From NCBI GenBank assembly GCA_012729505.1, contig JAAYDA010000079.1:1-39063 (forward strand): a DNA stretch of 39,063 nucleotides, written 5' to 3'. The stretch comes from Syntrophomonadaceae bacterium. Its GTDB lineage: Bacteria; Bacillota; Syntrophomonadia; Syntrophomonadales; DTU052. Below the pieces are notes generated by a model that did not search any database, had not been told where the DNA came from, and worked only from the letters and a program-made list of their open reading frames with translations. The translations under genes and the position numbers were made by a program. This document shows positions 7,994-24,443 of the stretch, piece after piece. Position 1 is the first letter of the stretch; each line of letters begins with the position of its first letter.

Positions 7994-9571
7994 TTATTTA
8001 ATTGTTTTTCGATACTCAGACGGGGTCATGCCCGTCTTTTCCTTAAAAACTCTGGTGGAATTACCAGGATATTCGAAGCCGCAGGAAATAAACGCTTCAC
8101 CAATACTCAGATTTTCGTCCCGCAATGCCGCTTTAAGCTTATCGATTTTAATCTCCTGATAATACCCATAGGGCGTCATGCCGGTATGTTTCTTGAAGAG
8201 GCGCGAAAGATGAGAAGAACTCAGTCGGACCATCTTGGCAAGCTTAGCGCCGTCGAACTCCTCCCGCCAATGATTATCAAGATATTCCCTGGCTTTTGCC
8301 ACATCCGATCTGCCGCTGTAAACCCTGCTCGTAAAAAATATGGCTACAATATGCTCCAACCCTCCATCAGGGCCAAAAACGGGAAAATTCAGGATGTCCG
8401 TGTAAATCGCTTCAATGTCACAAACATCGCTTCTTGTCTTATACCACTCCCAGAAGCTTTCCAGGGGCAATCTGATATCCGGAATCAGTACAATCTCTCC
8501 CTGAAAGGTCCTGCGAATCTCATCACGCATACCGAACACCTCGTTGACGAGGGAGTCTCTCAGCAAATTGTATTTGCCGAATATCAGGGACGTATCCAGG
8601 ACATTCCACATTTTGAGTGTTGCCTCGTTGATAAAAACAATATCTCCCCCCGGCTCAAATATTTGAATGGGGATTGGAAAAAGCTCCGCAATCCGAAAAA
8701 GCCGACTCTCCGTCTCACAGAAGGGGCGGGGAGGCTGTGGGGTGAAAAGCTCTGCGGCTTCGGCCAGCTTCAAGGTTCCGGGTGCCTTTTGCCGAACTTC
8801 ATGGTCCTTTCTGTACTGGGTCGGCGTCATCCCCACCCTGCTTTTGAAGGCTTTGGCAAAGCTGCCGCTGTAATCCACGCCACAGGAGGCAAACACCTGG
8901 CTGATACTGAGGCTGGTGTCGCCAAGTGCTTCTTTGATCTTTTCAACTTTAACCTCTTGATAATAACTATACGGTGTCATGCCGATCATTTTTTTGAATA
9001 GGCGCGCTAAATGATGGCGACTCATGCCGACAGCCTTTGCGATCCTGTCAAGATCAAAATCATCCCGCCAGTTGACATCCATATATTCTTTCGCTTTCAT
9101 GGCGTCCAGCCGCATCCGGTAAATGTGTTTCGTCATAAACACGGTGACTACGTAAGCGACCGAGTCATCTTCACTCCGCAGGGGAAGGCAGATGATATCC
9201 TGATACATATGGCTTTCTGTGGATCTGATTTGGGCAGAAGCGTATCGGTTGCCAATTTCCTCAAAGGGAACTCTCAAGTCATACAGAGAGAGGATTTCTC
9301 CGTTAAAGACCCGGCTCAGGTATGCTGATAAGCCCAGTTTGTGATTTATGTAAGGATCTTCTAAGATATTGAATCTCCCGACAATTTCTTCTGCCTGAAT
9401 TCGGAAGAAATCCACGAACGCCTGATTTACAAACCGACTGATGCCATCCGCTGAAAATACCTCCATCGGAATAGGGAAAAGCTCCAGAACAGAAAACAGC
9501 TCCTGCTTTTGTTCAAAAGGCCGACTTAAAAAAGCCACGGATTTTTTTCCCAGCGGATTATGCTTCTCCAT
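7994..9571 (-). CDS. AraC-family regulator with two tandem sensor + AraC modules
   Basis: 525 aa from the ATG at 9571, nine bases after GGAAGGAA; the longer frame starts at a TTG at 9616 without a ribosome site. Module 1 is a PAS-like sensor (about 20-150, opening LFPIPMEVF) followed by an AraC DNA-binding domain (about 150-250: LDRIAKAVGMSRHHLARLFKK, then GMTPTQYRK). After a linker, module 2 repeats the plan: sensor (about 270-405, LFPIPIQIF) and AraC domain (about 420-525: LAKMVRLSSSHLSRLFKK, then GMTPSEYRK). Most AraC proteins have one DNA-binding domain with two helix-turn-helix motifs; this one has four motifs in a single chain. Divergence between halves indicates an old internal duplication. 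Ligand and targets are unknown; inverted repeats lie just upstream. Confidence 0.88.
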   Translation of the reverse strand: MEKHNPLGKKSVAFLSRPFEQKQELFSVLELFPIPMEVFSADGISRFVNQAFVDFFRIQAEEIVGRFNILEDPYINHKLGLSAYLSRVFNGEILSLYDLRVPFEEIGNRYASAQIRSTESHMYQDIICLPLRSEDDSVAYVVTVFMTKHIYRMRLDAMKAKEYMDVNWRDDFDLDRIAKAVGMSRHHLARLFKKMIGMTPYSYYQEVKVEKIKEALGDTSLSISQVFASCGVDYSGSFAKAFKSRVGMTPTQYRKDHEVRQKAPGTLKLAEAAELFTPQPPRPFCETESRLFRIAELFPIPIQIFEPGGDIVFINEATLKMWNVLDTSLIFGKYNLLRDSLVNEVFGMRDEIRRTFQGEIVLIPDIRLPLESFWEWYKTRSDVCDIEAIYTDILNFPVFGPDGGLEHIVAIFFTSRVYSGRSDVAKAREYLDNHWREEFDGAKLAKMVRLSSSHLSRLFKKHTGMTPYGYYQEIKIDKLKAALRDENLSIGEAFISCGFEYPGNSTRVFKEKTGMTPSEYRKTIK

Positions 9572-9644
9572 TGACCTGACTTCCTTCCACACTTCAAATC
9601 TGGACCGCGTCAGCAAAAGTCATGAAATGCACCCGTCCATCGCT

Positions 9645-9882: not shown

Positions 9883-10278
9883 TTAACGTTTTGAGTATTG
9901 GGGAGCTTTACGGGCTTTGTGCAGTCCGTATTTCTTTCTTTCTTTCATGCGAGGATCGCGAGTTACGTATCCTGCCTGGCGCAATTGCTTTCTCAGCTCC
10001 GGGTTGGCTTTAATCAGAGCACGTGCGATTCCTAGTCTGACTGCTCCAGCCTGTCCACTGACCCCTCCGCCATGAACTCGGGCTATTACGTCAAAACGTC
10101 CGTCCAAATCAGTCAGAGCCAGAGGCTGCATAACTATAAGCCGCAGGGTGCGGTTGGGAAAGTAATTCTCAAACGCTTGACCATTGATCTGAAGCTGCCC
10201 GTCGCCGGGTAACAATCTAACCCGAGCTACTGCTGTTTTTCTTCGGCCTGTTCCTAAGTACTGAACCTTTGAAGTCAC
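9883..10278 (-). CDS. rpsI: 30S ribosomal protein S9 (uS9)
   Basis: 131 aa, the normal bacterial length. It shows the [14 protein letters not shown] start, the [19 protein letters not shown] core, and the basic tail ending in KAPQYSKR, which reaches the P-site tRNA in the ribosome. It starts at GTG with a GGGGGG site six bases upstream and lies 12 bases after rplM, its usual partner. Together with rplM it is cut off from the main ribosomal operon by about 13 kb of unrelated genes. Confidence 0.98.
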
Positions 10279-10290
10279 TTAATTCCCCCC

Positions 10291-10725
10291 TTATCCTCTC
10301 AATTCCCATTTTACCGGTTGCTGGGCCTTGTGAGGATGGCTAGACCCCCTATAGACCTTAAGCTTTTTAAACATCTGGCTGCCCAGAGTGGTGTGAGGCA
10401 ACATACCTTTGACTGCTACTTCCAATGCCTTCTCCGGCTTTTTCTTCATCAAGGTTTGATAATCGGTTTGCTTCAATCCACCTGGATAATTGGTATGATA
10501 GGTATACATTTTCTGCGTAAGCTTGTTACCTGTCAGCTTAATCTTCTCAGCATTAATGACGATAACAAAATCACCACAATCGACATGGGGAGTAAAAGTT
10601 GGCTTATGTTTTCCCCTCAGCATAGCTGCAATCTCAGCAGCGAGCCTACCCAGTGTCTGATCTGCAGCATCAATTACATACCATTTCCTGTCCTGATCCT
10701 GTGGCTTGGCCATGTAAGTTTTCAA
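10291..10725 (-). CDS. rplM: 50S ribosomal protein L13 (uL13)
   Basis: 144 aa, an early-assembly protein of the large subunit. Recognised by [45 protein letters not shown] and GMLPHTTLG. The start is TTG at 10725 with AGGAGG seven bases upstream. A near-consensus promoter (10790-10818) and a hairpin with a short T-run (10743-10769) precede it. It is first gene of a two-gene unit with rpsI, whereas in many Firmicutes it follows truA directly. Confidence 0.98.
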
Positions 10726-10742
10726 GCGGTTCCCTCCTATTT

Positions 10743-10769
10743 AAAAACCTGACACGGGGCGGGGTCAGG
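10743..10769 (-). terminator. Terminator-like hairpin in the rplM leader
   Basis: On the - strand CCTGAC and GTCAGG form a stem around a C-rich loop, followed by TTTTT and then the AGGAGG of rplM. Read on + it is also followed by a T-run. It could be an attenuator acting on the promoter at 10790-10818, or a terminator that insulates rplM from the inserted genes. It also belongs to the TGACA-type hairpins scattered over this block. Confidence 0.55.
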
Positions 10770-10789
10770 CATTTTTCCGTCACTTATTA

Positions 10790-10818
10790 ATGTTACAAAT
10801 TTGTGGCGCAAATGTCAA
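10790..10818 (-). promoter_or_regulatory. Probable sigma-A promoter for rplM-rpsI
   Basis: On the - strand there is a perfect -35 box TTGACA (10818-10813), a 17-base spacer and a -10-like TAACAT (10795-10790). Transcription would start near 10783, about 58 bases before the rplM start. The -35 box abuts the direct repeat flanking the IS-like remnant at 10835, so the promoter sits exactly at the edge of the inserted DNA. Confidence 0.7.
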
Positions 10819-11226
10819 GACTGATGAACTACATGGATCGTGTTGTTTGATCAGCGATAATGTCATGGTATAACTCATCAAGGAAAATGTCATCCCCACA
10901 ATTCGGGAGTCAGGCGCGGATACACGGGATGAATTCCAGCGTGCGACGTTGGATGAGGGCCGAGCAAACTCCTGCGAAGGTGAGTCCGAAGAGCAGTCGA
11001 AGGACAGGAGGTCCTGAGTCCGCCTCCTGAGCCATGGAGGGCGAATTGGCGGTGTGCTGCTCGAAGGCCGAACCTGAGCAACTGAGATTGCCGGTTCTCA
11101 TTCTGGGAGCAAGTGGAATTCAATCCGGGTCGAATCTGGAAGCCAAATCTTCTGCTAAAGAACTTGTGCCTCCTGCTAGTCCAACATGACATTTTCCCTG
11201 CCCATTGACAGACTGATGAACTACAT
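10819..11226. mobile_element. IS21-like remnant / MITE-like element, copy A
   Basis: The core (about 10835-11210) begins TGTTGTTTGATCAGCG and ends CCATTGACA. Both ends carry the motif GGAAAATGTCA in inverted orientation, a pattern I associate with IS21-family termini. It is flanked by a 16-bp direct repeat GACTGATGAACTACAT (10819-10834 and 11211-11226). No transposase fits in the 370-bp interior; open frames there lack family features. Inside, GAATTCCA/TGGAATTC arms (near 10930 and 11115) form a further inverted repeat. The ends match copy B at 18064-18250. It is a non-autonomous or deleted element next to the rplM promoter. Confidence 0.65.
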
Positions 11227-11387
11227 TGGTAATCGATTATTATTAAATTTATTAACGCAAAGATGTGTGTCATGTTAACATATATCTAAATGACCCTCAT
11301 TGAAGAAAAGTTAATAATAGTATTCCTCGTACAGACCCGGATTAAGTTGTCTAGTTAAAAGATATCATTAATGAAGGGGTGGTGACA

Positions 11388-12653
11388 GTGAGACAGTCTG
11401 AAGTACCGGCAGCCGGGTGTTTGGATGGCGTGATAGTGATAGATTTTACCTGGGTTCTTTCCGGGCCGCACGCTTCGAAAATGCTGGCTGATATGGGAGC
11501 TACGGTGATTAAAGTTGAACCATATCAGGTAGGAGCTAATGAAAGACATTTGCTCATGTCAAAGACTGTGAACGGAGTAAAGCAGAGTTCATATTCTATC
11601 GGTGTGAATAGAGGAAAAAAAAGCATCTCCTTGGATTTAAAGAAACCTCAAGCCCGGGAGATTATATCTGAACTGATCAAAAAAGCCGATGTGCTCGTTG
11701 AAAACTACACCCCCGGAGCCATGGAACGTCTGGGCCTTGGCTATGAGGCGGCGAAAAAACTTAAGGAAGACATCATCTATTGCTCAATTTCCTGTTTCGG
11801 CCACTGGGGACCATACAGCAACCGGCCCGGCTACGACATAATCGCCCAGGGGGCCTCAGGCTTGAGTACCATGTATGCCATACCTCAGGCAAGTCCCATA
11901 TCTCCGGGGGACGTTCTGGCAGGTGCCAATGCAGCTCTGGCTATAGCAGGGGCACTCTTTGCCAGGAATGTAAATGGATGTGGGCAAAATATTGATGTCG
12001 CCATGGTTGATAGCCTTATTTCAGCCTCCGAAAGCTATATACCCTGGTATACAATGGCTCAGGCGGCGGGAGAAGTATTAGAGACGCCTCCGATTGGCCG
12101 TTTTTATGATACCTACGCACCTTTTGGCACCTATCAGGGCAAGGACGGAAGAATCAATATCGCTTGTTTGGAGGAACAGCGGTGGCCCGGACTGGTTAGA
12201 TCCATGGGCAAGGAATATGCGTGGCTTATGGAAGATCCCCGCACCGTTGATGTTAATACTCGATGTGAGAATGCACCCTGGCTTAACGCAACCGTTGAAG
12301 AGTGGGTCATGTCTATGGGTTCGGTGCATGAAGTCGAAAAACTTCTAACCGAGGCAGGAGTAGCCTGCCAGCGCTGTTTGTCAGTAGCGGAAATAGTTGA
12401 TACCGATCCCCATATAAAAGCCCGGGAAATGTTCATTGAAGTGGATCAACCTTTTCTAGGACCGATTAAGCTTTGCAACAACCCGATTAAGATGTCGGAA
12501 ACTCCTTGCGGTATTCGGGGCTATGGACCTCTGCTGGGCGAACACACCGATGAAGTCCTGGCTCATATGTTAGGTTACACTGAAGAGCAGATCAAAGAAC
12601 TTCACGATAATGCCGTAATATATCATGAGCCGGCGGTAGACCGGCTCAAATAA
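11388..12653 (+). CDS. Class III CoA-transferase, CaiB/BaiF family
   Basis: 421 aa from the preferred GTG at 11388, eight bases after AAGGGG; the earlier GTGs at 11379 and 11382 overlap or crowd that site. The family moves CoA between an acyl-CoA donor and a carboxylic acid via an aspartyl intermediate. Landmarks are VIVIDFTWVLSGPHASKML with DMGATVIKVEP near the N-terminus, RGKKSISLDLK, ENYTPGAMERLGLGY, the conserved GPYSNRPGYDIIAQGASGL segment, and DVAMVDSL with the predicted catalytic Asp208. It is the only + strand gene in the accessory block and converges on the ABC transporter operon. With the nearby acyl-CoA ligase it could activate an imported acid. Substrates cannot be told from sequence. 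Confidence 0.9.
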   Translation: MRQSEVPAAGCLDGVIVIDFTWVLSGPHASKMLADMGATVIKVEPYQVGANERHLLMSKTVNGVKQSSYSIGVNRGKKSISLDLKKPQAREIISELIKKADVLVENYTPGAMERLGLGYEAAKKLKEDIIYCSISCFGHWGPYSNRPGYDIIAQGASGLSTMYAIPQASPISPGDVLAGANAALAIAGALFARNVNGCGQNIDVAMVDSLISASESYIPWYTMAQAAGEVLETPPIGRFYDTYAPFGTYQGKDGRINIACLEEQRWPGLVRSMGKEYAWLMEDPRTVDVNTRCENAPWLNATVEEWVMSMGSVHEVEKLLTEAGVACQRCLSVAEIVDTDPHIKAREMFIEVDQPFLGPIKLCNNPIKMSETPCGIRGYGPLLGEHTDEVLAHMLGYTEEQIKELHDNAVIYHEPAVDRLK

Positions 12654-12666
12654 GTATGTATCATAC

Positions 12667-12694
12667 CTGACAGGGGGCACCGTCCCCCTGTCAG
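12667..12694. terminator. Bidirectional terminator-like hairpin between CoA-transferase and ABC operon
   Basis: CTGACAGGGGG (12667-12677) pairs with CCCCCTGTCAG (12684-12694), 11 perfect pairs with a six-base loop. On + it is followed after ten bases by a run of seven Ts. It lies 14 bases past the CoA-transferase stop and 15 bases past the end of the convergent ATPase gene. The TGACA...TGTCA form recurs at other sites in the block. Confidence 0.75.
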
Positions 12695-12708
12695 ATTAGT
12701 GCGTTTTT

Positions 12709-13344
12709 TTAAGAGTCTATGTCATCCAATATTATTTGCCGGGTAGCTATATGATCCATCAGGGAGCGGCTGTGAGTTACGGCAATTAGCCCGATGCCCC
12801 GCTGTTTTACTTCTGTCAGCAGAAAAGTCCATATCTGGCTTTGGGTGATAAGATCCAGCATGGTGCTGATTTCGTCGGCAATGAGAAATTGCGTTCGTTT
12901 GCCCAAGGCCCGGGCCATGCAAAATCGCTGCAGCTCCCCGCCGGACAATTCGCCGGGAAAACGATTGAACCAATCCCGTTCGATGCCTAATTGATCAATG
13001 ATACGCTCTTCTATATCATCACCTTCGGCAATAACTTCCTTCATCCGCAGCCTGGGATTTACGGATTTCTCCGGATGCTGCCAGATCATCTGCACCGGGC
13101 AATAGCCCTTGATTTTATGAATGTCTTGCCCGTTCAGCAAAACCCGGCCTTCTTGAGGCTTTGTATAGCCGGACAAAATCTGGCACAGAGTAGTTTTCCC
13201 CCACCCGCTGGGAGCTAATATCCCTACCCGTTCCTGGTTCTCCATGGTAAATTGGAAGTTCTCCAAAATATTGGCGTTCTTTTTATAACCAAATGATATA
13301 TCTTTTGCCTCTAAGATCAAGGTCCTCGTCTCCTCACTCCGCAT
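12709..13344 (-). CDS. ABC transporter ATPase, peptide/nickel family (OppF/NikE-like)
   Basis: 211 aa from the ATG at 13344, which overlaps the stop of the upstream ATPase gene by 11 bases. A TTG at 13320, nine bases after AGGAG, is a real alternative; the extra N-terminal frame to 13431 is read-in over the upstream gene. Walker A is APSGWGKT (44-51, with the unusual Trp), signature LSGGELQRF (133-141), Walker B FLIADE (153-158), H-loop His191. It lacks the C-terminal cysteine-bearing extension of its partner and is short for OppF but normal for NikE. Last gene of the transporter operon; it would pair with the other ATPase to power import. Confidence 0.88.
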   Translation of the reverse strand: MRSEETRTLILEAKDISFGYKKNANILENFQFTMENQERVGILAPSGWGKTTLCQILSGYTKPQEGRVLLNGQDIHKIKGYCPVQMIWQHPEKSVNPRLRMKEVIAEGDDIEERIIDQLGIERDWFNRFPGELSGGELQRFCMARALGKRTQFLIADEISTMLDLITQSQIWTFLLTEVKQRGIGLIAVTHSRSLMDHIATRQIILDDIDS

Positions 13345-14269
13345 GGATGCAGCGAACCGTTCCGCAGCGGATAATATGCTCCGGGATATCCTCTTCACAT
13401 TCTGGTGTAAACTGGTGACACCGGGGTCCAAAGGGACAACCCTTGGGCATATCCTTTACATAAGGCTGATTCCCGGGAAAGGGGTGGAAGCCGTTCTGGG
13501 GCAAAGCCCGCCATAGAGCTTTAGTATAAGGATGGCGCAAGGTGTCTATAGATTGGAAATCTGTGACCAGCGCTTCTTCGACAGTGGTGCCGGCATAAAA
13601 AACCGCGATTCGGTCGGCAACTTTCAAAGCCAGATCAATATCATGAGTGATAAGAAGCACCCCCTGGCCTTGGTCGGCAAATTGGCGAAAATGGCTCATG
13701 GCATTTTGAGCCGCTTCCAAATGGAGTCCCGGGGTAGGCTCATCGGCGATAATCAGCCGCGGATTTCCCATCATGGCCTCGGAGAGCAAAACCCGGCGGG
13801 TCATACCTCCTGATAGTTCAAAGGGATAAAGCCCGCCGGTATCTTCGGGCAAGTCATAAAGAGAAAAAAGTTCTTCCTGTTTCCGGCGAATATGCTTGTC
13901 ATTGCGCCCTTTGCGCACCTGCAGGCCCACCTTTTGCAGAGGATCCAGATAGCTCACACTCTGAGGGACCAAAACTATTTCTTTGCCCCGCAGCTGACGA
14001 ATACGGGCCGCGTCCAAGAGTTCGCCGTCAAAGATAATATTTCCTGAAGCATTACAGTTAGGCGGCAGAATTCCTAAAATAGAGTGGGCCAAAAGGCTTT
14101 TTCCAGAACCGCTGGCCCCCACCACCGCCACCAGTTCCCCCTCGTGGACGGAAACATTCAAATTATGAATGACTTTTAAATCTATTTGCCGCAATCCCCG
14201 CTCATACTGAGTAAAGGAAACCGAAAGATTGTCTATTTGCAAAATGTGTTTATGATCGAGGCAGGTCAT
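13334..14269 (-). CDS. ABC transporter ATPase, peptide/nickel family (OppD/NikD-like)
   Basis: 311 aa. Walker A GASGSGKS (51-58), signature LSGGMTRRV (152-160), Walker B LIIADE (172-177), H-loop in LLITHDID. The C-terminal part has the family extension with RHPYTKAL and the cysteine cluster CPFGPRC followed by two further Cys positions; in this family such clusters can bind an iron-sulfur centre. It lies 17 bases after the second permease and overlaps the partner ATPase. A cytoplasmic energy-coupling subunit of the importer. Confidence 0.92.
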   Translation of the reverse strand: MTCLDHKHILQIDNLSVSFTQYERGLRQIDLKVIHNLNVSVHEGELVAVVGASGSGKSLLAHSILGILPPNCNASGNIIFDGELLDAARIRQLRGKEIVLVPQSVSYLDPLQKVGLQVRKGRNDKHIRRKQEELFSLYDLPEDTGGLYPFELSGGMTRRVLLSEAMMGNPRLIIADEPTPGLHLEAAQNAMSHFRQFADQGQGVLLITHDIDLALKVADRIAVFYAGTTVEEALVTDFQSIDTLRHPYTKALWRALPQNGFHPFPGNQPYVKDMPKGCPFGPRCHQFTPECEEDIPEHIIRCGTVRCIHAE

Positions 14270-14286
14270 GGCGTAAATTCACTCCT

Positions 14287-15153
14287 TTAATCTTGGGCGC
14301 TGTAAGGATCAATGAGCTTGCGCAGGCTTCCTCCCGCCAGATCAAAAAGGAGAACCGTGATAAGCAAAGCCAAACCCGGGAAAACAGCCAGCCACCACAT
14401 GCCTAACGACAAATACCTCATGCTCTCCGATAGAATGATGCCGATGCCGGGCTGCTCCGGCGGCAGACCAAAACCCAAAAAGGTAAGAGCGGCTTCATGC
14501 AGAATGGCATGAGGGAAAAGCAGAATCAGCCCCACTAAAAACTGGGGGAAAACATGGGGGACCATATGCTTTACGGCAATTTCTAGTTTCCCCCGCCCCA
14601 TCTTGCCGGCAATTTTTACGTAATTTGTCTCCTTTAGCTGGAGAATTTCCGCCCGAATTACCCTGGTCAATGCAGGCCAATGGCTTATGGCCACTGCCAC
14701 AATAACTCCGAAGGTGCCTTTACCCAGCGCAAAAGATATAAGGATGAGGAGCAGAAGATGGGGAATGCCCATCACCAAATCCACCAGCCAGGTAATAACC
14801 TCATCCACGGTCTTGCCTAAAGTGGCGGCGGCTGTTCCTAGAATGGCGGCAATCATGGCGCTGATAAAGGAAGCAAAAAGTCCGATAACAATGCTAATGG
14901 ACAGCCCCCTCAGGGTGCGGGCCAGCATGTCCCGGCCTAACCAGTCCGTGCCAAAAGGATACTGCAGGCTGGGCAGCAGATTTTTCTGCATGAAATTGGT
15001 GGTTATGGCCGCATGGCTAAGCAATGTGCCCGCAACTGCAATAAGAAGCAAAAACGTCAGGCCCAAAACCAAATAAATGATAGTCTTGCTGCGTTGATTC
15101 AGCCTTTTTCTTTTGGAGATTTGCAGAGGGGAGGTGACAAGGGTATCATCCAT
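14287..15153 (-). CDS. ABC transporter permease, peptide/nickel family (DppC/NikC-like)
   Basis: 288 aa inner-membrane protein. A short basic N-terminus is followed by one transmembrane helix, a periplasm-facing segment (MQKNLLPSLQYPFGTDWLGRD, typical of DppC) and about five more helices. The EAA-type coupling loop is visible around NYVKIAGKMGRGKLEIAVKH. The start ATG has AGGGG eight bases upstream and overlaps the previous permease gene by eight bases, indicating translational coupling. Together with the DppB-like subunit it forms the transport channel. Confidence 0.93.
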   Translation of the reverse strand: MDDTLVTSPLQISKRKRLNQRSKTIIYLVLGLTFLLLIAVAGTLLSHAAITTNFMQKNLLPSLQYPFGTDWLGRDMLARTLRGLSISIVIGLFASFISAMIAAILGTAAATLGKTVDEVITWLVDLVMGIPHLLLLILISFALGKGTFGVIVAVAISHWPALTRVIRAEILQLKETNYVKIAGKMGRGKLEIAVKHMVPHVFPQFLVGLILLFPHAILHEAALTFLGFGLPPEQPGIGIILSESMRYLSLGMWWLAVFPGLALLITVLLFDLAGGSLRKLIDPYSAQD

Positions 15154-16153
15154 GGACGCTTCCCCTCCTTATTCGAGGATCGATCACGCCGTATAAGATA
15201 TTGGCGATCAGATTGCCCGTAAACACCAGAGCGGCGCTTATCACCGCAATACCTAATAGGAGAGGAATATCCCCGTCCAAACCGGCGGAAACGGCTGCCT
15301 GACCCAAACCTGGATAAGAAAAGACCTGTTCTACCAGAATGGAACCGCCAAAGATTTCACTGAGAGAAGCAAATTGCAGGGTCATGGCAGGCAGGGCAAT
15401 ATTGCGCAGAGCATGTTGCTTGACAATGGAAAGCTGGCTCTCTCCCCGGGCCCGGGCAAACAGAACATAATCTTCTTCCATTACGTCAATCATTTTTTCT
15501 CTGGTGTGGAGGGCAATGTTGGCTACTCCTACCGCACTCAGGGTCAGAGCCGGCAGGATCAGATGCCGGAGGCTGTCAAGAACAGTAACCTCCGCCGCCG
15601 CCACGCCGATGGGAACGCTTAATCCTATCGGGAAGATCTTCAGCTCAACGGAAAAGACCATCAGGAAAATCAGAGCCAGCCAAAAGGTGGGAGTGCTGGC
15701 CAGCAGCAACGAATACCCTTTGATCAGCTTGTCGATCCAGCGGCCACGATACAGCCCGGCTATAGTGCCGAGTATGAATCCTATAATCCCCGAACAAGTC
15801 CAGGCCGTAATCATCAGCAGAAAAGAGTTCATAAATTTGACACTGATGACATCAGCCACCGGCTGACGATAAATAAGAGACGTTCCCATATCCCCCTGGA
15901 TAAAATCCGTAAGCCAATTCCAATACCGCTCCACCGGCGGCGTGTCCAAACCGAAATGGGCTTCCAATTTGGCCAGGTTTGTCTCATTCAGGTTGGCCAT
16001 GCCAACTTCACCCACATAAGAACGGATTGGATCCACCGGAGATAATGAAACGAGAGTAAAGGAGAGAATGCTCACCGCCAACAAAAGCAGAATCGCCTTA
16101 ACGAAGCTTTGGCCGACATATTTATAAAATTTTGAATATAGTCTGGTGTTCAT
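15146..16153 (-). CDS. ABC transporter permease, peptide/nickel family (DppB/NikB-like)
   Basis: 335 aa inner-membrane permease with about six helices. DppB-type marks include SPVDPIRSYVGE after the first helix, a loop with HFGLDTPPVERYWNWL, and the coupling motif ARARGESQLSIVKQHALRN. The ATG has GGAG eight bases upstream and lies 87 bases after the binding-protein gene. Substrate range in this family (peptides, nickel, opines, other small molecules) cannot be set from the permease. Confidence 0.93.
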   Translation of the reverse strand: MNTRLYSKFYKYVGQSFVKAILLLLAVSILSFTLVSLSPVDPIRSYVGEVGMANLNETNLAKLEAHFGLDTPPVERYWNWLTDFIQGDMGTSLIYRQPVADVISVKFMNSFLLMITAWTCSGIIGFILGTIAGLYRGRWIDKLIKGYSLLLASTPTFWLALIFLMVFSVELKIFPIGLSVPIGVAAAEVTVLDSLRHLILPALTLSAVGVANIALHTREKMIDVMEEDYVLFARARGESQLSIVKQHALRNIALPAMTLQFASLSEIFGGSILVEQVFSYPGLGQAAVSAGLDGDIPLLLGIAVISAALVFTGNLIANILYGVIDPRIRRGSVHG

Positions 16154-16240
16154 ATAGAATGCTCCAGCAAAAAAGTAGCCGATATAAAAAGCATGGGGAT
16201 TTTCTCTGTACCCCGTTGGCGGCCACCGGAAATTTTAGGT

Positions 16241-17842
16241 TTAATCCCAGTACCACTGATCCACGTTATTGGTAATAGTCCAGCCATAGCCATGGGGGTG
16301 AATCTTCTCGTCAATAACGTTCAAATTTTCTCTGGCGAAATAGACGTGTTTTATTTCCACCAGCCATACCCAGGGTGAATCGGCAGCGGGAGTGACGCCG
16401 GTATTACCGTCCCATTGCGCTTTCATCCAATATTCATAGGAAGCCTCCACTGAAGGCGCTGCCAGAGCCTGCCTAATGTAGTCATCCACAACCGGATTGG
16501 AATAGGAAGCACCGTTTTTGCCCGAATAATAATGGCTTATGAGACCGGCCGGTGAATGCATTCCCGCACCGAATACATGGGGAGTTTTATAATAGAGGCC
16601 GGCAATTTGATCCCAGCTTGAACCGGTCGGATTCACTTTAATTCCTACTTCTTTCAGCATTTCGGTTACCGCCATGGCGATACCGGTACGGGCGGAATTA
16701 GAAGCAATGTAGAGCAGATCGAATTCTGCTTTCAGGCCGTTTTTCTCATAAATGCCGTTGGCGTCCAAAGTCCAGCCGTCCGCCTCTAAAATAGCTCTGG
16801 CCCGGAGCGGATCGTATTCTACTTTCATGGTCTGGCTTTCCCAGGGCTCGCCGATGCTTTCGCTGTAAGCCACGGACCCATAGCCGTACAATACATCTCT
16901 TACGAGAGCTTCTCGGTCAATGGCACAGGCAATGGCTTGGCGGATGGCCCGGTTAGCAGTGACGTCATTGCCAGCAGGCAGAGTTGCCCCGGCAGCATCG
17001 GGGGCGGTTTTGTTCCCCGCAGGAATACAGGGGAGATTGATACCTCGCACATCAACCGAGTTAAAAGACAGGATATCATAACCTGTGATTGGTCTAACTG
17101 TATAATCGGGATCCGTATAGGCCACGTCCACCTGGCCGCTTTTAGCAGCAGCGTAGGAGGCCTCTTCCGACATGAAAACAACGGTAACCTTTTTAATATT
17201 GGCTTCTTCGCCATAATAGTCCGGATTGGCTTCCATAATTACCTGTTCGCCTTTATCCCATTGTTTTAAGATGTAGCGGCCGGAACCGATAGGCTTTTGG
17301 CCGTAGGCTGCGGATTCGTAGGCGTGTTCGGGGACTATGCCGACTACGGCGGCGATATAAGCAAAGGAGGAATAAGGAGTTTGCAGATGAAAAACTGCGG
17401 TGGTATCATCGACGGCTTCCACTGAGTTCAGCATGGACAAATCAGTCTCTGTCGCCTGTTTCATAGCGTTGTTATAAGTAAAAGCCACATCCTTGGCGGT
17501 AAGTGGCGCGCCATCGGTAAACTTTACGTCGGAACGGATTTTAAAAGTCCAGGTGAGGCCATCGTCAGAGATATCGTAGTCCGTTGCCAGATCATAGCCA
17601 ATGATGAGGTCGTTTTCGGTGGTCAGCAAGGTGCTTTGAAAAAGAGGATCATGGGTGTGTTCGCCGGCAGCCCAGCCTAGAATAGGATCAAACCCGGCGG
17701 CCGGTTCCGATTCCACATCCATGGCGATGATGACGCTTTCTTTGACCGATGAGGAAGGTATCCCATCATCATTGCCGCAGCCAACCAAGATCAATAGCGA
17801 AAAAGCAGTCAGCCCCAACGCAATAAAAAATCTTTTCTTCAT
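16241..17842 (-). CDS. Extracellular solute-binding lipoprotein, family 5
   Basis: 533 aa. An N-terminal lipoprotein signal with lipobox LVGC (Cys22) anchors it outside the membrane. The mature part has family 5 features: WTFKIRSDVKFTDGAPLTAKDVAFTYN, DYYGEEANIKKVTV and the AIRQAIACAIDREALVRDVLYGYG segment. The ATG has a strong AGGAGG five bases upstream. First gene of a five-gene importer operon (binding protein, two permeases, two ATPases). Sequence-level resemblance covers peptide, nickel and other organic-solute binders. Given the flanking CoA-activating enzymes an organic substrate seems more likely than nickel, but this is inference. Confidence 0.92.
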   Translation of the reverse strand: MKKRFFIALGLTAFSLLILVGCGNDDGIPSSSVKESVIIAMDVESEPAAGFDPILGWAAGEHTHDPLFQSTLLTTENDLIIGYDLATDYDISDDGLTWTFKIRSDVKFTDGAPLTAKDVAFTYNNAMKQATETDLSMLNSVEAVDDTTAVFHLQTPYSSFAYIAAVVGIVPEHAYESAAYGQKPIGSGRYILKQWDKGEQVIMEANPDYYGEEANIKKVTVVFMSEEASYAAAKSGQVDVAYTDPDYTVRPITGYDILSFNSVDVRGINLPCIPAGNKTAPDAAGATLPAGNDVTANRAIRQAIACAIDREALVRDVLYGYGSVAYSESIGEPWESQTMKVEYDPLRARAILEADGWTLDANGIYEKNGLKAEFDLLYIASNSARTGIAMAVTEMLKEVGIKVNPTGSSWDQIAGLYYKTPHVFGAGMHSPAGLISHYYSGKNGASYSNPVVDDYIRQALAAPSVEASYEYWMKAQWDGNTGVTPAADSPWVWLVEIKHVYFARENLNVIDEKIHPHGYGWTITNNVDQWYWD

Positions 17843-17900
17843 GTTTACCTCCTAATCAAAAATTAATAGGGAATGCTTCTCCTTATTAGTATGGCAATAA

Positions 17901-18028
17901 CAAAAAGAAGCCCCTTACAAATAAGGAACTTCATGCTCCGCCAACTCTTCAGAGTTGTTCTCCGCAGATTCAATTTTATTAAAGGATATAAAACGGCGAC
18001 ATGCTTCATACACGCCTATTCTAGAATA
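17901..18028 (-). promoter_or_regulatory. Leader/upstream region of the ABC operon with hairpins and palindromes
   Basis: Reading toward the binding-protein gene: a 12-base perfect palindrome TATTCTAGAATA (18017-18028), a hairpin CAACTCT-TC-AGAGTTG (17942-17957) framed by CTCCGC direct repeats, and a terminator-like stem GTTCCTTA/TAAGGGGC with a four-base loop followed by TTCTTTTTG (17901-17929). The last ends 58 bases before the start codon. This could be an attenuated leader. I do not recognise a riboswitch class, and no clear -35/-10 pair was found. Confidence 0.4.
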
Positions 18029-18054
18029 TTAAAATAAAATAATCTAAACTACAA

Positions 18055-18259
18055 GCTTTTTTTAAATGGCTGTTGTTGATCAGCGATAATGTCATGGTAT
18101 AAGTTATCAGGGAAAATGTCATCCCCATGATCGGAAGCAGGGACCGAAGCACGGGGTGAGTTCCGACGTAGTCAGGCGGGAGCCAAAGCTCTCCCTAAAT
18201 ATTTGTGCCTCCCGCTGGTCCCAACGTGACATTTTCCCTGACCATTGACAGCTTTTTTT
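18055..18259. mobile_element. IS21-like remnant / MITE-like element, copy B
   Basis: The core (about 18064-18250) shares its left end (TGTTGTTGATCAGCGATAAT and following bases) and its right end (GTGACATTTTCCCTG, then CCATTGACA) with copy A, in the same orientation. It is about half the length of copy A because much of the interior is missing. GGGAAAATGTCA occurs inverted at the two ends, as in IS21-family termini. A nine-base direct repeat GCTTTTTTT flanks it (18055-18063, 18251-18259), unrelated in sequence to the repeat flanking copy A. It lies between the ligase gene and the ABC operon. Confidence 0.65.
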
Positions 18260-18262
18260 GAC

Positions 18263-18293
18263 GTGACACAGAGCGTGTTCAGTCCCGTGTCAC
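18263..18293. repeat. GTGACAC/GTGTCAC hairpin beyond the acyl-CoA ligase
   Basis: Seven perfect pairs enclose a 17-base loop, 15 bases past the ligase stop. The - strand lacks a T-run after it, so it is a poor classic terminator. It shares its TGACA-type ends with hairpins at 10748, 12667 and 23677. Confidence 0.55.
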
Positions 18294-18307
18294 ATCTTGT
18301 TATACTA

Positions 18308-19954
18308 TTATGATTTGAATTCTTCGTCTACTTCCTGCTTCAGGAGTTTTTTCTCGATCTTGCCCAGCGGAGTCATGGGCAGCATGGGCCGGAAAATATA
18401 TTCCCGGGGGACCTTGTAGTCTGCCAGGTACTCCTTCATATATTCCTGAATAGCATCTCCGTCAAGAGTAATACCTGGTGCGGGCATAATATAAGCCCGC
18501 CCCACTTCACCCATTAGTTTATGGGGTACGGGAACCACTGCCGCAAACAGTACTCCCGGGTACTGCCCGAGCCGGTCTTCAATCTCTGCCGGATATACAT
18601 TATACCCACCGGTAATATACATTTCCTTGGCCCGGCCTACCACGTGCAAATCGTCATTTTCGTCCAGGAATCCCAGATCACCCGAGTAGAACCAGCCTTC
18701 TTTATCGAAGGCGGCAGCGGTTGCTTCCGGCATTTTATAGTATTCCTTGAACAGCATGGGGCCGCGGTAACATATTTCACCGGTAGTTCCCCGCGGAACT
18801 TCGTTGTGATTTCCATCTCTGATGGTCAATTCAAATTCAGGCGCAATTTTGCCGCAGGTCTGGTGCAGGTTGTCCAGATCGCCAGGCAGGTCTGTCCAGG
18901 TAGTGAAACCCGCAGTTTCTGTCATACCCATGGGATTGCTGCAGTAGGGAGTAACCTCCAGCATTTTTGCCAGGATATCCCGAGGAGCCATAGCTCCTCC
19001 AATCTGACCAAATCGGTTGCGTGAACGGGCTTCTTCCAAATCAAAATCGGGCGAACTGAATATCAGCATGTACATGGTGGGCACTCCGGCCATAAGAGGA
19101 ACCTGGTATTGACGGCATATCCTGTTGGCCAGATGAGGCTCAAAGTAATCCATCAACACCTGGGTACAGCCGGCGATCAGAGGTGTAGCTCCCCACTCGG
19201 TGGCACCGCTGACATGATTGACCGGGCTTGCACAGACGATGTGATCCCCCGGCTGCATTCCTGCCGGTGCCAAAAACTCGGTCTTTTGTACCAACGCCAT
19301 ACTGATCACATTGCGATTGGTCAGCACCGCACCTTTGGGCTGGCCGGTGGATCCTGAGGTATATACTATGATCAGAGGGTCGTCGGCACCGACTTCCGCT
19401 TCCCGATCTAATAAAGCCTGATCAAATTCGGAATAATTACCCTGCATGATTTGATGCCAGGTAACGGCGTTAGGAAGTTTGGCCGGTCCGCCCGCAACCC
19501 AAACCTGTTCTACCGTAGGACATTGTTTTAAGGCTTCCCCCAACGGCTCCTGGTATGAGGGAACATCTAAAAGGCCATACAGACACAACACATGACTTGC
19601 CTCACAGTTGCCAAGGACATAGGCCATTTCATGAGATGTGCTGCGGGTACTCATGCCCACAACAATGGCGCCCACCATGGAAGCAGCCAAATAGAAAGTA
19701 AAAAACTCCGGACGGCCATTCATTACATAACCTAGCCGATCACCCTTCTTAACTCCCATCTTCAACATGTATTTCGCTACCTGCTGCACATTCTTATTGA
19801 GCTGCTGAAAGCTGATAGGAACGTCATGATAGATGAAAGCCGCATTGTCTGGAATCAGGTCCGCCCAAGTTTTCAGATAATCTGAAAACTTGGGCAAGGC
19901 ACCCTCCAATCGGTTACCGCGCTGAATTTTTATGATTTCCCGTTTGCCGCTCAT
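18308..19954 (-). CDS. AMP-forming acyl-CoA ligase (ANL superfamily)
   Basis: 548 aa. It would activate a carboxylic acid to its acyl-CoA with ATP via an acyl-adenylate. All core motifs are intact: P-loop YTSGSTGQPKG (198-208), GMTE (343-346), SGDLG (424-428), the hinge and signature region VVGRAKEMYITGGYNVYPAEIED (about 438-460, within it R441), and the PLGK lysine K532 used in the adenylation step. The ATG has GGAGG six bases upstream. Transcribed in the same direction as the regulator upstream (212-bp gap) and the ABC operon downstream. Medium-chain, cyclic or aromatic acids are all possible; the exact acid cannot be read from the sequence. Confidence 0.93.
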   Translation of the reverse strand: MSGKREIIKIQRGNRLEGALPKFSDYLKTWADLIPDNAAFIYHDVPISFQQLNKNVQQVAKYMLKMGVKKGDRLGYVMNGRPEFFTFYLAASMVGAIVVGMSTRSTSHEMAYVLGNCEASHVLCLYGLLDVPSYQEPLGEALKQCPTVEQVWVAGGPAKLPNAVTWHQIMQGNYSEFDQALLDREAEVGADDPLIIVYTSGSTGQPKGAVLTNRNVISMALVQKTEFLAPAGMQPGDHIVCASPVNHVSGATEWGATPLIAGCTQVLMDYFEPHLANRICRQYQVPLMAGVPTMYMLIFSSPDFDLEEARSRNRFGQIGGAMAPRDILAKMLEVTPYCSNPMGMTETAGFTTWTDLPGDLDNLHQTCGKIAPEFELTIRDGNHNEVPRGTTGEICYRGPMLFKEYYKMPEATAAAFDKEGWFYSGDLGFLDENDDLHVVGRAKEMYITGGYNVYPAEIEDRLGQYPGVLFAAVVPVPHKLMGEVGRAYIMPAPGITLDGDAIQEYMKEYLADYKVPREYIFRPMLPMTPLGKIEKKLLKQEVDEEFKS

Positions 19955-20016
19955 TCCCTTCCTCCCTTTCTCTGATGAATTGTAAAACCAGGCCGCCTCA
20001 ATGCTAGCTCCAGTGT

Positions 20017-20070
20017 ATTACATCATTCTTTGACGCCGCTTAGATTTCGCTTAGAAAATTTAAAATTTTC
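20017..20070 (-). promoter_or_regulatory. Candidate BTAD/SARP-type operator and promoter of the acyl-CoA ligase
   Basis: Two identical heptamers CGCTTAG occur at 20037-20043 and 20048-20054, start-to-start 11 bp with a four-base spacer (CTAAGCG on the coding strand). Downstream toward the ligase a -10-like TGTAAT (20022-20017) lies 14 bases away, so the heptamers cover the -35 region and no good -35 box is present. A perfect palindrome GAAAATTTAAAATTTTC (20054-20070) adjoins them. Activators of the SARP group are known to bind such 11-bp-spaced direct repeats, and a BTAD regulator is encoded next door. Confidence 0.5.
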
Positions 20071-20166
20071 GGGCAAAATAAGTTTTTTGCGATTAGGTTC
20101 AATATTTGGGGGAAGGAAATGCCGGAAGCACAGTTTATGTTAAGGAAGGATTGAACAGGCTGATTC

Positions 20167-23100
20167 CTAAAAAACGCTGTAATTGCTATCCTCACGGGAA
20201 AGCCATTTGAGTAAACCGGATATAGGATGTTCTATTCCGCTTCTTATAAGGTCCCGCAATTCTTTGGTCTTTCGATGGGGGCTGACCTGTAATTCTAATG
20301 CTAAACTCTTTTCCAGTTCATTGTAGATTTTAAGGGCTTGCCCAGGATTGCATAAAGCAAAATGAGCCAGCATGAGCAGGCGGCATGAATTCTCATCGGC
20401 GAATGACAGGGAAGATGCTTGGTTTAATACAGTTAATGCTTCTTCATAATCCCCCGTCTGGAGAAGAAGCCTTCCCAGGGCAACCAGAGCATCGTAGCTC
20501 TTTTTTGCCAAAGCCTTGCTCTCCGCCGCCAGCAAAGGCCCGAGGTTTTCTCCTTCCAAAAGATCTCCGCGATAGATTTTGCACAATTGCCTTAATAATT
20601 CAATGGCTTCTGCTATTTGATTTGACTCCATGCACTTGGCGGACTTTTCATGCAATGCCTCGAATTGCCCAACGTCGGTCCAGATTATGGCATGATTGAT
20701 ACTGCACAGCCCGTCTTTTAAGATTATATACTCGTGTTTGCCCAGGAATTTGCGTAAACGGTTCAAGGTGAAATGGAAGTTGTTCCGGGCCGCTTTAATA
20801 TCAGTCTCCGGCCACATTTCTTCCATTACCGTTTCCATGCCGACAGGTACTGATTTAACGGCCAAAAGGGCTAATAGATAGGCAGGTTTTTTTAAGCCCA
20901 GATTAACATGTTTTGTTCCGCAAATATCTATAATCAATGGTCCCAACATTGATAGCTTTAGTGGCTCGGGTCGGGTTTCCTCAGGATTAACGTCCATAGC
21001 AAAAAGGCGACGCCGGTGCAATTCATGGACATAAACCGCATATTCACTTCTATTTTCGATTTTAGCCATAATCCGGGCCACATGATCATCTTTCCACATG
21101 AAAAAATGGTAATACGATTTCTCCAGAGCTAATGCGAATAAACCGTCAATACTTTCGGCAAACAGTCCTTTGTCGCCCCAAATGTCATATAGCAGAGCTA
21201 ATTGCAGGTAACACGAAGCCTCCAGGAAGAAACTGCCCGCCGCCCTGCTCCTTCTTAAAGCCTCACGCAAATAACGCTCCGATTCCTGGTGGCTGCCGAT
21301 CTCCCTCATAGCTCCCCCCAGAACCAGGAGGCATTCGATAAGGTAGATTTCACCCCCGGTTTTCTCCCGGAGTCTTAAAGCCTGGCCGGTTAATGCGGCC
21401 GCTTCATGATATTGGCCCCTGACATACATGTAGTGTCCTCTCCAGGTCCAATAGTATGCCATGATATGGTCGTTTTCAACAGTCATATATATTCCCATGA
21501 TATCGCCCATTTCATTGAAAAGCCGCTCACATAGCACGTAATCGCCCAGATAAAGAGCTGCATAACAGGCGAAGTTTTTAATATAGAATATTTGCGCCTC
21601 CATCCCCAGCTTTTGGGCCTTGTCCAGAGAATCCGCAAAAAAGGATTGGGCAGCAGCAAAATCACCGGTAAAATCCGCGATCAATCCAGCCAAATAGGGG
21701 AGATAAACGGAAGCCAGCTCCTCCAAATCAGAGGGATTTATTGTTTCGTAAGCCTCGGACAATCTCTTTTGAGCAACATCAAAATTACCCATATAGTGAT
21801 TCACAAATGCCAATGCCCAATTCCCCCAAAGCTTAATAAAGTCATCCTGTAATATGAACCCGATTTTTCTGGTCTCTTTACCCGCCCGGATTCCCTCGCC
21901 CAGATTCCCGGTTAGATAACAGTGGGCCAACGCCACATAAAAATTACGGTTGGCACTTGTTTTCAGATCCAATGCTTCCTGGGAATACGGGCGTTGAGAT
22001 TGATAAGTAATTATAGTCTGCATCTGGCGAAATTCGCCGGAATACATTAATACCGTCATACTTTGGCCCAGTGCATAAGACTCCCCCTGAACATCGTTAT
22101 TTTTTCGGAAGCCTTCCAGTGCTTCCTGCAGGAAATGGTGCCAAAGGGCAGGATCACGAAGTTTAACTGAACAGGCTAAGGCGAAACTCATCCAGGGACT
22201 AAAATATCTTCTTTCAGGCGGCAGCTTTATAATCAGAGAATAGAGGCGGTCGGCCAAATCGTAACCTAAAATTTCCGGCTTTGATCTTTTTAATACTTCA
22301 ATGGACCGTTCAATATCCTGACCGTGGATATAATTTTCAATGGCAGCTCTCCAATCGTTCCGTGAAAAGAAATAGTTTCCGGCGTTCCTGTGCAGATCCC
22401 GGATTTTATCCTCACCCCAAATATCAATTGCCTTTTGCATCAGGAACGACTTCCAAAGGGAGTGCAGCCTAAAAGTGCCGGGCTCTCCTTCTACAGGATA
22501 TACCAGCATATTCATGGCATTAAGGTTTTTCAAAACTGTTGCACCGGTTTCGCCGGCTAGAATTTTGGCCAGGTCAGAAGATATTTCTTTGGCAATAGAT
22601 GTTGCCATCAATACATTTTGCTGCTCCTCAGAGAGATAATGAAATAATTCCTGTTCCAGATAAACGCTTAATACGGGAATCTTTTTTAACAGGAAAGCAG
22701 CCTCAATATCCAAGGCATCCGGGCCAAATCTCTCATCGGACAACATCTCACCCAGCATAACCATAACCGGCGCCCATCCCTCAGTAAGGCTCATAATCCC
22801 CTCCATCTGCTTCCGGGACAGGTTCATTTTATATATCTCTCGGAAGAATTCATGAGACTCCGCCGGTGAAAATGCCAGCTCAGCATCACTAATGTTTATC
22901 ATCTTGCGTTGTATTGTCTTTTGCGCTAATTTCCAACTAGGTTCACGGCGGGTAATAATAATGAAATGATAATCAGGAGGGACCAGAGATACTAATGATT
23001 GAATGAAAACTCCAAAACTCCCAGTTTCATCAATGGTATGAAAATCGTCCAGAACAATTACCAGGCCATTTGCCAGAGAAAACTGCCCAAGGAATCCGGC

Positions 23101-23415
23101 CAGAGCTGAAGAAACATCCTCAATCGAGCCAGTACAAATAGAGTTTATATCATCACCGGGCAGGGCGGTAAAATCCTGCAAAAAATCGATCAGATCTCCG
23201 ATAAATCTGGCTAAATTTGAATTGGATGGCCCCAGTGTGTACCAAAAGACATTTTGCGGCATCCGTTGCAGAATGTCGGCCACTAACGTGGTTTTGCCCT
23301 GACCAGGCGAACCGCTGACCAGAGTAAGCCGCTTATCCGCCCCTCTTTCCAGGAGTCTTTCCAGACCAGGGCGTTGAATGATCTTGGGTAAGTCCGGAAT
23401 GTTAACCTGTGGCAT
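20167..23415 (-). CDS. MalT-like ATPase/TPR regulator with C-terminal winged helix and BTAD domain
   Basis: About 1082 aa from the ATG at 23415, ten bases after GGGAG; the longer frame begins at a TTG at 23436. The N-terminus is a STAND-type ATPase with Walker A GSPGQGKT (35-42) and Walker B VLDDFH (about 121-126), and an SLTEGWAP segment typical of MalT. A long helical middle (about 330-800) fits TPR-like repeats that sense an inducer or partner. The end has an OmpR-type winged helix (about 820-905, starting LSMLGPL) and a BTAD domain (about 910-1070). There is no LuxR helix-turn-helix, unlike MalT itself. This is the domain logic of large SARP-like activators. It probably controls the ligase and perhaps the ABC operon. 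Confidence 0.9.
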   Translation of the reverse strand: MPQVNIPDLPKIIQRPGLERLLERGADKRLTLVSGSPGQGKTTLVADILQRMPQNVFWYTLGPSNSNLARFIGDLIDFLQDFTALPGDDINSICTGSIEDVSSALAGFLGQFSLANGLVIVLDDFHTIDETGSFGVFIQSLVSLVPPDYHFIIITRREPSWKLAQKTIQRKMINISDAELAFSPAESHEFFREIYKMNLSRKQMEGIMSLTEGWAPVMVMLGEMLSDERFGPDALDIEAAFLLKKIPVLSVYLEQELFHYLSEEQQNVLMATSIAKEISSDLAKILAGETGATVLKNLNAMNMLVYPVEGEPGTFRLHSLWKSFLMQKAIDIWGEDKIRDLHRNAGNYFFSRNDWRAAIENYIHGQDIERSIEVLKRSKPEILGYDLADRLYSLIIKLPPERRYFSPWMSFALACSVKLRDPALWHHFLQEALEGFRKNNDVQGESYALGQSMTVLMYSGEFRQMQTIITYQSQRPYSQEALDLKTSANRNFYVALAHCYLTGNLGEGIRAGKETRKIGFILQDDFIKLWGNWALAFVNHYMGNFDVAQKRLSEAYETINPSDLEELASVYLPYLAGLIADFTGDFAAAQSFFADSLDKAQKLGMEAQIFYIKNFACYAALYLGDYVLCERLFNEMGDIMGIYMTVENDHIMAYYWTWRGHYMYVRGQYHEAAALTGQALRLREKTGGEIYLIECLLVLGGAMREIGSHQESERYLREALRRSRAAGSFFLEASCYLQLALLYDIWGDKGLFAESIDGLFALALEKSYYHFFMWKDDHVARIMAKIENRSEYAVYVHELHRRRLFAMDVNPEETRPEPLKLSMLGPLIIDICGTKHVNLGLKKPAYLLALLAVKSVPVGMETVMEEMWPETDIKAARNNFHFTLNRLRKFLGKHEYIILKDGLCSINHAIIWTDVGQFEALHEKSAKCMESNQIAEAIELLRQLCKIYRGDLLEGENLGPLLAAESKALAKKSYDALVALGRLLLQTGDYEEALTVLNQASSLSFADENSCRLLMLAHFALCNPGQALKIYNELEKSLALELQVSPHRKTKELRDLIRSGIEHPISGLLKWLSREDSNYSVF

Positions 23416-23488
23416 TATGGCGTCACTCCCGATCAATCATCATTCTGGTTCGAATGCCAATTCTGCTGGGATCCATAAAGTAAGACTT

Positions 23489-23611
23489 GATTCAGGTGGA
23501 GTTTTGACTCCATCTGAATCTTAGTCACACGGATCCAGGGACTTAACTGCCCTTGGGCACCCGCCGCCTATAGAGGCGGGTGTCTTAGGGCAGATTAGTC
23601 ATCGGATAAAA
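23489..23611. repeat. Structured repeat, copy 2, with extra upstream hairpin
   Basis: 23516-23611 matches 1-96 (94 of 96). Here the preceding bases are visible and add a second hairpin, GATTCAGGTGGAGT (23489-23502) with ACTCCATCTGAATC (23507-23520), 14 pairs with one G-U and a TTTG loop, partly overlapping the 96-nt unit. The inner stem of the main hairpin is better paired than in copy 1 (GGCGGGTG against CACCCGCC). It lies between the regulator start and the end of truA, at the left edge of the displaced junction. It resembles an end of a hairpin-bearing insertion element or its RNA, but no transposase gene is present. Confidence 0.75.
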
Positions 23612-23676
23612 ATTCACTTTCCGGTTTGTTGAGACTGTTTCGCGATTTAAGTGGCAGATACCTGCCGTGCCACCGT

Positions 23677-23702
23677 ATCTGATCTGACAACAGAACCCCC
23701 TG
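23677..23702. repeat. TGACA-type hairpin downstream of truA
   Basis: CTGACA and TGTCGG (one G-U pair) can close a hairpin around an ACAGAACCCCC loop, starting ten bases beyond the truA stop. No T-run follows on the - strand. It could end the long ribosomal operon weakly; its main interest is similarity to the hairpins at 10748, 12667 and 18263. Confidence 0.4.
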
Positions 23703-23711
23703 TCGGATTAG

Positions 23712-24443
23712 CTAATATTCGACTTTTACCAGGTAGAGGCCGGTGGCGGGAGCGGTGGGACCGGCTTGATTGCGATCACCGGTTTGCAGAATAGTAGTTA
23801 TGCTCTGAAGGGGCATGGCCTCCCTGCCTATTTCCAGAAGGGTCCCCACCAGATTTCTTACCATGTGGTACAGAAAGCCATTGGCAGCAACTTCGAATAT
23901 AAGATATGGCCAATGCTCTTCAATAGAAAAAGTATAGATGGTTCTGACAGTATCCTTGATATTGCTTCCTGAAGCCATCCATCCCCGGAAATCATGCTCA
24001 CCCAGAAGCTCTTTGGCCGCCAGTTCCATGACCGGCAAGTCCAGTGGACGACAATATCCGTAAGTATATCTTCGCTGCAGAGTATAGCCTTCCGGAGAGC
24101 GGTAGATCAAGTAGCGATACGTCTTGGATCGGGCATCATAGCGGGGATGGAAATCGGGGTGAACCTTTTCACTTGACAATACTCTAATGTCTGCCGGAAG
24201 CTTGGTATTCAAAGCCCAAGCAAATCTATCCGGCGGAATACCGGATGTGGTGTCAAATGCCACCACCTGTCCAAGGGCATGTACTCCGGCATCAGTCCTG
24301 CCGGAGGCCTTTACCCTGATTTCTTCACCGGTTAAAAGACAGATGGCTTCTTCCAGACTTCGGTCCACAGTCCTGAGTCCGGTCTGTCTCTGAAATCCAT
24401 GAAAATCAGAGCCATCGTATTCCACTAACAGCTTGATCCGCAT
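23712..24443 (-). CDS. truA: tRNA pseudouridine(38-40) synthase TruA
   Basis: 243 aa, normal length. It isomerises uridines 38-40 in the tRNA anticodon stem. The catalytic aspartate is D51 in SGRTDAGVHALGQV; FHGFQRQ near the start and YHMVRNLVGTLLEIG near the end are family marks. The ATG has GGAG seven bases upstream and lies 17 bases after ecfT. It is the last gene of the ribosomal-ECF operon here; the usual next genes, rplM-rpsI, lie about 13 kb farther on. Confidence 0.97.
   Translation of the reverse strand: MRIKLLVEYDGSDFHGFQRQTGLRTVDRSLEEAICLLTGEEIRVKASGRTDAGVHALGQVVAFDTTSGIPPDRFAWALNTKLPADIRVLSSEKVHPDFHPRYDARSKTYRYLIYRSPEGYTLQRRYTYGYCRPLDLPVMELAAKELLGEHDFRGWMASGSNIKDTVRTIYTFSIEEHWPYLIFEVAANGFLYHMVRNLVGTLLEIGREAMPLQSITTILQTGDRNQAGPTAPATGLYLVKVEY

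Follow-up and report, generated by a model that had tools for sequence, protein, structure and literature searches.

We analysed contig JAAYDA010000079.1 of the Syntrophomonadaceae bacterium assembly GCA_012729505.1 over its full length of 39,063 nucleotides (the window; contig C77 of genome G000, which comprises 2.45 Mb in 80 contigs). On the minus strand the genes rpoA-rplQ-ecfA1-ecfA2-ecfT-truA close the ribosomal S10-spc-alpha-ecf run, and rplM-rpsI follow downstream in the same direction. Both sides are intact and collinear, and ∼12.9 kb of accessory genes separates truA from rplM. A prediction made earlier from the letters of the window (the original prediction) had described this block as a coenzyme A (CoA)-transferase, an ATP-binding cassette (ABC) operon, an acyl-CoA ligase, a giant regulator and repeats between intact, correctly oriented truA and rplM-rpsI; open reading frames and family scans bear out this description. 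The genes are as follows, with identities referring to four genomes of the same family, G001–G004:

23,712–24,443, minus strand: truA, last gene of the ribosomal run (PF01416, E = 3.6e-47; 64% identity to truA of G001–G004)
20,167–23,436, minus strand: regulator of 1089 aa, a MalT-like STAND ATPase with TPR and a C-terminal SARP (BTAD) region (Pfam/NCBIfam)
18,308–19,954, minus strand: AMP-dependent acyl-CoA ligase (PF00501, E = 5e-72)
16,241–17,842, minus strand: SBP_bac_5 solute-binding protein (PF00496, E = 1.6e-73)
15,146–16,153, minus strand: OppB (Pfam/NCBIfam)
14,287–15,153, minus strand: OppC (Pfam/NCBIfam)
13,334–14,269, minus strand: OppD (Pfam/NCBIfam)
12,709–13,431, minus strand: OppF (Pfam/NCBIfam)
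11,379–12,653, plus strand: CaiB/BaiF (family III) CoA-transferase (PF02515, E = 7e-101), convergent with the ABC operon and divergent from rplM
10,291–10,725, minus strand: rplM, intact (TIGR01066, E = 7e-65; 80–92% identity to the family genomes)
9883–10,278, minus strand: rpsI, intact (85–88% identity to the family genomes)

The SBP_bac_5 gene and OppB, OppC, OppD and OppF constitute a five-gene Opp-type ABC operon (12,709–17,842). Judged by family membership, the block genes likely serve to import an organic acid or a comparable substrate and to activate it with CoA.

In order to compare the gene order, as the original prediction had proposed, we determined the positions of both genes, truA and rplM, in 80 relatives; 53 genomes of the order have both genes on one contig. 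The truA-rplM spacer measures 104–625 bp (median 185 bp) in 52 of these 53, the exception being G036 with 9343 bp, and within the family an empty site is found in G001 (176 bp), G002 (185 bp) and G003 (150 bp). Furthermore, truA lies within 800 bp upstream of rplM at 53 of 80 rplM loci of named genomes, mostly Firmicutes. None of the relatives compared carries the block at the truA-rplM site, and those block genes that are found in relatives sit elsewhere. Since the short spacer is present in nearly all genomes of the order, three of the four family members among them, the ancestral state in this order has truA next to rplM, and the block is a derived feature. Both outcomes named in the original prediction as refuting it, the block in all close relatives and an ancestral separation of rplM-rpsI from truA, are contradicted by this comparison.

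The same spacer is occupied in other genomes as well. In the fourth family member, G004, truA and rplM lie on separate contigs (L039 and L040), whose common spacer sequence gives way to different sequence a few bases ahead of the TTGACA box described below. The truA contig runs on into an element with a reading frame (L238) resembling the C-terminal end of an rve-type transposase, and we read the G004 spacer as occupied by an insertion sequence (IS), its family being judged by eye. The G036 spacer (L041, contig C4) holds a radical-SAM gene, a MerR regulator, a phasin, a MaoC-like hydratase, PhaC-like and related hydrolases and an AMP-binding enzyme: a predicted polyhydroxyalkanoate (PHA)-type cluster of 9.3 kb. 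A genome from another order, G073, has a 5.6-kb spacer that includes an asnS-like gene, named by eye from its translation. The G036 cluster and the G004 IS resemble the block of the window in lying after truA and ahead of rplM, whereas their gene content is unrelated. The seam between truA and rplM therefore takes up unrelated DNA repeatedly.

Three features mark the edges of the block:

23,684–23,706, strand not assigned: palindrome ctgacaacagaaccccctgtcgg just past truA, like the GTGTCAGGGGGACGGTTCTCATGACACC-type palindromes in the spacer of the relatives (judged by eye on side-by-side spacers)
10,790–10,818, minus strand: predicted rplM-rpsI promoter, TTGACA and TAACAT boxes at a spacing of 17 (promoter scan; highest score in the region, 10 of 12)
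10,748–10,769, minus strand: conserved hairpin CCTGACCCCGCCCCGTGTCAGG in the leader that separates promoter and rplM

Both promoter boxes, at the same spacing, are found in G001–G004 and in the window, and a TTGACA-type promoter before rplM is likewise present in the more distant G006 and G035. The hairpin CCTGACCCCGCCCCGTGTCAGG is common to the five sequences of G001–G004 and the window, with one base exchanged in G002 and in G004, as is the Shine-Dalgarno region preceding rplM. Similarity to the G001–G004 spacers ends at the −35 box (10,818), from where the sequence is foreign. Because promoter, leader and Shine-Dalgarno region are kept, rplM-rpsI probably form a transcription unit of their own, and the block would therefore have entered between two units and not inside one; promoter activity and expression are here deduced from the nucleotide sequence. 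The covariance model of the Rfam L13 leader (RF00555) gave no match upstream of rplM at the gathering threshold or at E ≤ 5, nor did any other Rfam family match the leader, and a search of the literature library available to us found nothing on the rplM leader together with truA. Firmicutes in which rplM-rpsI is a separate unit after truA have the same order and orientation and likewise a promoter and leader in the truA-rplM spacer; in contrast, the window carries its accessory genes before the rplM promoter, and its leader is without an Rfam family. At the other edge the ancestral spacer seems to reach to about 23,684, since the palindrome resembles those after truA in the relatives, and it probably survives from the ancestral spacer 3′ of truA. 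As the foreign sequence lies downstream of the truA stop and upstream of the rplM −35 box, the operons on either side should both function, and the flanking ribosomal genes are probably unaffected. Transcription of the block would not simply enter rplM, because the CaiB gene is divergent from it. The claim of an apparently harmless insertion into a conserved gene order thus agrees with the empty sites and with the retained promoter and leader. Integration into a conserved operon holds for the gene order, which is interrupted, and not for a single read-through transcription unit.

The block genes do not share one distribution. Orthologues of the regulator are found in G003 (contig C152, 74%) and G004 (C132, 67%), and homologues of the ligase in G004 (C22, 81%) and, in two pieces of 91% and 85%, beside the regulator on G003 contig C152. 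This split ligase orthologue (L220, 8406–10,038) has ambiguous bases between its parts, and the split is due either to a frameshift or to a gap in the assembly. Regulator and ligase of G003 stand side by side, ordered as in the window, with a 5′-nucleotidase and a cytochrome-c-peroxidase-like gene as their neighbours. The corresponding site holds the ligase only in G004, where the regulator is at another locus, and neither gene in G001; the nucleotidase region of G000 itself (C41) has neither. The pair evidently moves within the family, and the regulator may control the ligase, given that the two adjoin both here and in G003. Homologues of the CoA-transferase occur in G002–G004 (71%) and G053 (76%), all at other loci. 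For the SBP_bac_5 protein, no homologue above 32% was found in 62 relatives, the best in the order reaching 31–32%. Since regulator and ligase, CoA-transferase and ABC operon differ in distribution among the relatives, a patchwork of gene groups with different histories describes the block best. The composition check suggested by the original prediction gave no contrast: GC content and GC at third codon positions (GC3) match, with GC3 at 0.475–0.583 in the block and 0.38–0.56 in the flanks.

In addition to these genes the block carries two kinds of dispersed repeat, named E1 and E2:

23,480–23,610, strand not assigned: E1, dispersed, 131 nt, with two strong hairpins, ATAAA before it and GGATAAA at its end
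18,071–18,250, plus strand: E2 copy 2, shortened, between the ligase and SBP genes, with a degraded 10-bp flanking repeat AGCTTTTTTT
10,841–11,210, plus strand: E2 copy 1, 370 bp, a predicted IS1202-type miniature inverted-repeat transposable element (MITE) with TGT...ACA ends and a structured core at ∼10,910–11,145
10,818–10,834 (left) and 11,210–11,226 (right), plus strand: target duplication AGACTGATGAACTACAT of E2 copy 1, 16–17 bp (repeat inspection)

E1 is present in at least 17 further near-full-length copies in G000 (95–99% identity over ∼137 bp), and related copies with about 80% identity occur in G005 and G009. Its boundaries are sharp: each of the 21 aligned copies (18 from G000) has ATAAA on its left, nearly all copies end in GGATAAA, and two hairpins are present while a terminal inverted repeat is absent. 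E1 reads as a non-autonomous IS200/IS605-like MITE that inserted separately. It resembles the palindrome-associated elements of IS200/IS605 (PATEs, PMC7290912), which are likewise short, consist of ends only and have subterminal hairpins, no terminal inverted repeat and a fixed 5′ flank (ATAAA in E1); it differs from them in that a Y1 transposase partner with E1 ends was not found. A Y1 gene (PF01797) was not detected in the G000 assembly, and the Y1 genes of G005 and G009 are not flanked by E1 ends. Rfam gave no match to E1. Copies also stand at contig ends, positions 1–96 of the window lying inside one and contig C40 (L154) of G000 ending 13 bp after another, and E1 likely causes assembly breaks in this genome.

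E2 copy 1 has 14 further loci in G000 with 82–93% identity. Its inverted ends of ∼24–26 bp (TGTTGTTGATCAGCGATAATGTCATG versus TGTCAATGGTCAGGGAAAATGTCATG) are accompanied by a second, inner repeat, and the target duplications around well-preserved copies measure 20, 18, 18 (one mismatch), 17, 14 and 14 bp. Our first guess, the IS21 family, was replaced by IS1202 on account of the long duplications and the TGT/ACA ends. The published IS1202 group with long target-site duplications has duplications of 16–28 bp (PMC10132070); E2, with 14–20 bp, shares with it the TGT...ACA ends, the length of the inverted ends and an inner repeat resembling a binding site. In contrast to the IS1202 family, E2 is non-autonomous: it is 370 bp or shorter, lacks a transposase and has a structured non-coding core. 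A complete IS behind E2 was not found in G007, G020, G033 and G035, where the contigs searched hold only ends and truncated copies; in G007 and G033 related left ends run into the start of a reading frame. At the end of contig C5 and the start of C53 in G007 (L188/L231), a 19-bp duplication GACCGAGACCATTGATATT flanks a related, probably full-length IS1202-type element.

The core of E2 is a G+C-rich, rod-like segment of ∼200–240 nt at about 15 loci in G000 (window 10,910–11,145 and L171–L184), mostly with IS1202-type ends; three sister-genus genomes carry it without such ends, at 69–73% identity (L235, L237 and L052). Its predicted fold has z = −4.2, and compensatory changes occur at 20 of 67 predicted pairs among 10 sequences. 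No Rfam family matched. Tentatively, the core may belong to an unrecognised family of structured RNA or single-strand elements picked up by IS1202-type ends, a suggestion in which we place limited confidence.

We are fairly confident that the block is an accessory patchwork accumulated at the seam between two transcription units, probably in more than one step, and that it received MITE copies. The ribosomal run ends at truA, and rplM-rpsI would start with their own promoter and leader. Into the spacer between them ∼12.9 kb would have gathered through several recombination or insertion steps, bringing regulator and ligase, the Opp-type importer and the CoA-transferase, and the block would also have received one E1 and two E2. 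Several points weigh against this view. The genomes compared are all from outside the genus, and the block may instead have arrived pre-assembled in a single transfer. GC3 marks no part of the block as recent, and the activity of the rplM promoter is predicted from sequence. Finally, the fragmented assembly breaks at E1 elsewhere, and the join on the truA side, which runs through E1, is assembly-based.

The original prediction had assumed one integration event ending at two repeats, and a genomic island or composite transposon that entered in one piece, bounded by the repeats beside truA and rplM, would fit a contiguous block that has repeats close to both ends and in which a pair of equally oriented E2 copies brackets the CaiB-ABC segment. 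We consider it unlikely. The structured repeat near truA and the IS-like remnant near rplM that the original prediction had pointed out are real, dispersed repeats; as mechanistic boundaries they fail, because E1 and E2 are unrelated and each is scattered singly through the genome, as expected for two separate MITE-like insertions. E2 copy 1 has its own 16–17-bp duplication, so that it is not the end of a larger transposon and entered after the neighbouring sequence was in place; copy 2 retains traces of one, as for separate insertions, and a composite transposon bracketed by the two copies was rejected on these grounds. Pfam/NCBIfam scans of every block gene revealed no integrase or transposase, no tRNA was found at the block, and the longest match between its end regions is only 6 bp. 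The differing distribution of the gene groups likewise speaks against a single event.

A still smaller chance is left for an assembly artefact, in which truA was joined to the regulator via the repeated E1. The near-identity of the E1 copies and their presence at contig ends would allow such an error. However, the join on the rplM side is without E1, E2 copy 1 shares no more than 93% identity with any other copy, and the remnant palindrome still follows truA. Moreover, ∼12.7 kb upstream of rplM is without truA, so that the separation stands even if the E1 join is false. That the block is ancestral and was lost by the relatives is hardly credible: the comparison with other genera leaves it some room, but the short spacers throughout the order and the fact that block genes in relatives are never at the truA-rplM site speak against it.

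Apart from the block, the window encodes a 1795-aa surface protein with atrophied immunoglobulin-like (aBig_2) and S-layer homology domains (1110–6497, minus strand), and a repetitive 1644-aa reading frame at L257 (37–4971) is similar in look. A 540-aa protein with two AraC-type helix-turn-helix regions (7994–9616, minus strand) is apparently an internally duplicated regulator.

We regard the block as ordinary genome plasticity at a tolerant seam. The most conserved operon run has such a seam, from truA to the rplM promoter, which IS, PHA-type genes and genes for transport and CoA-activation have entered independently. The general view of these operons is unchanged; the seam is useful to know where conserved ribosomal gene order serves as a marker.

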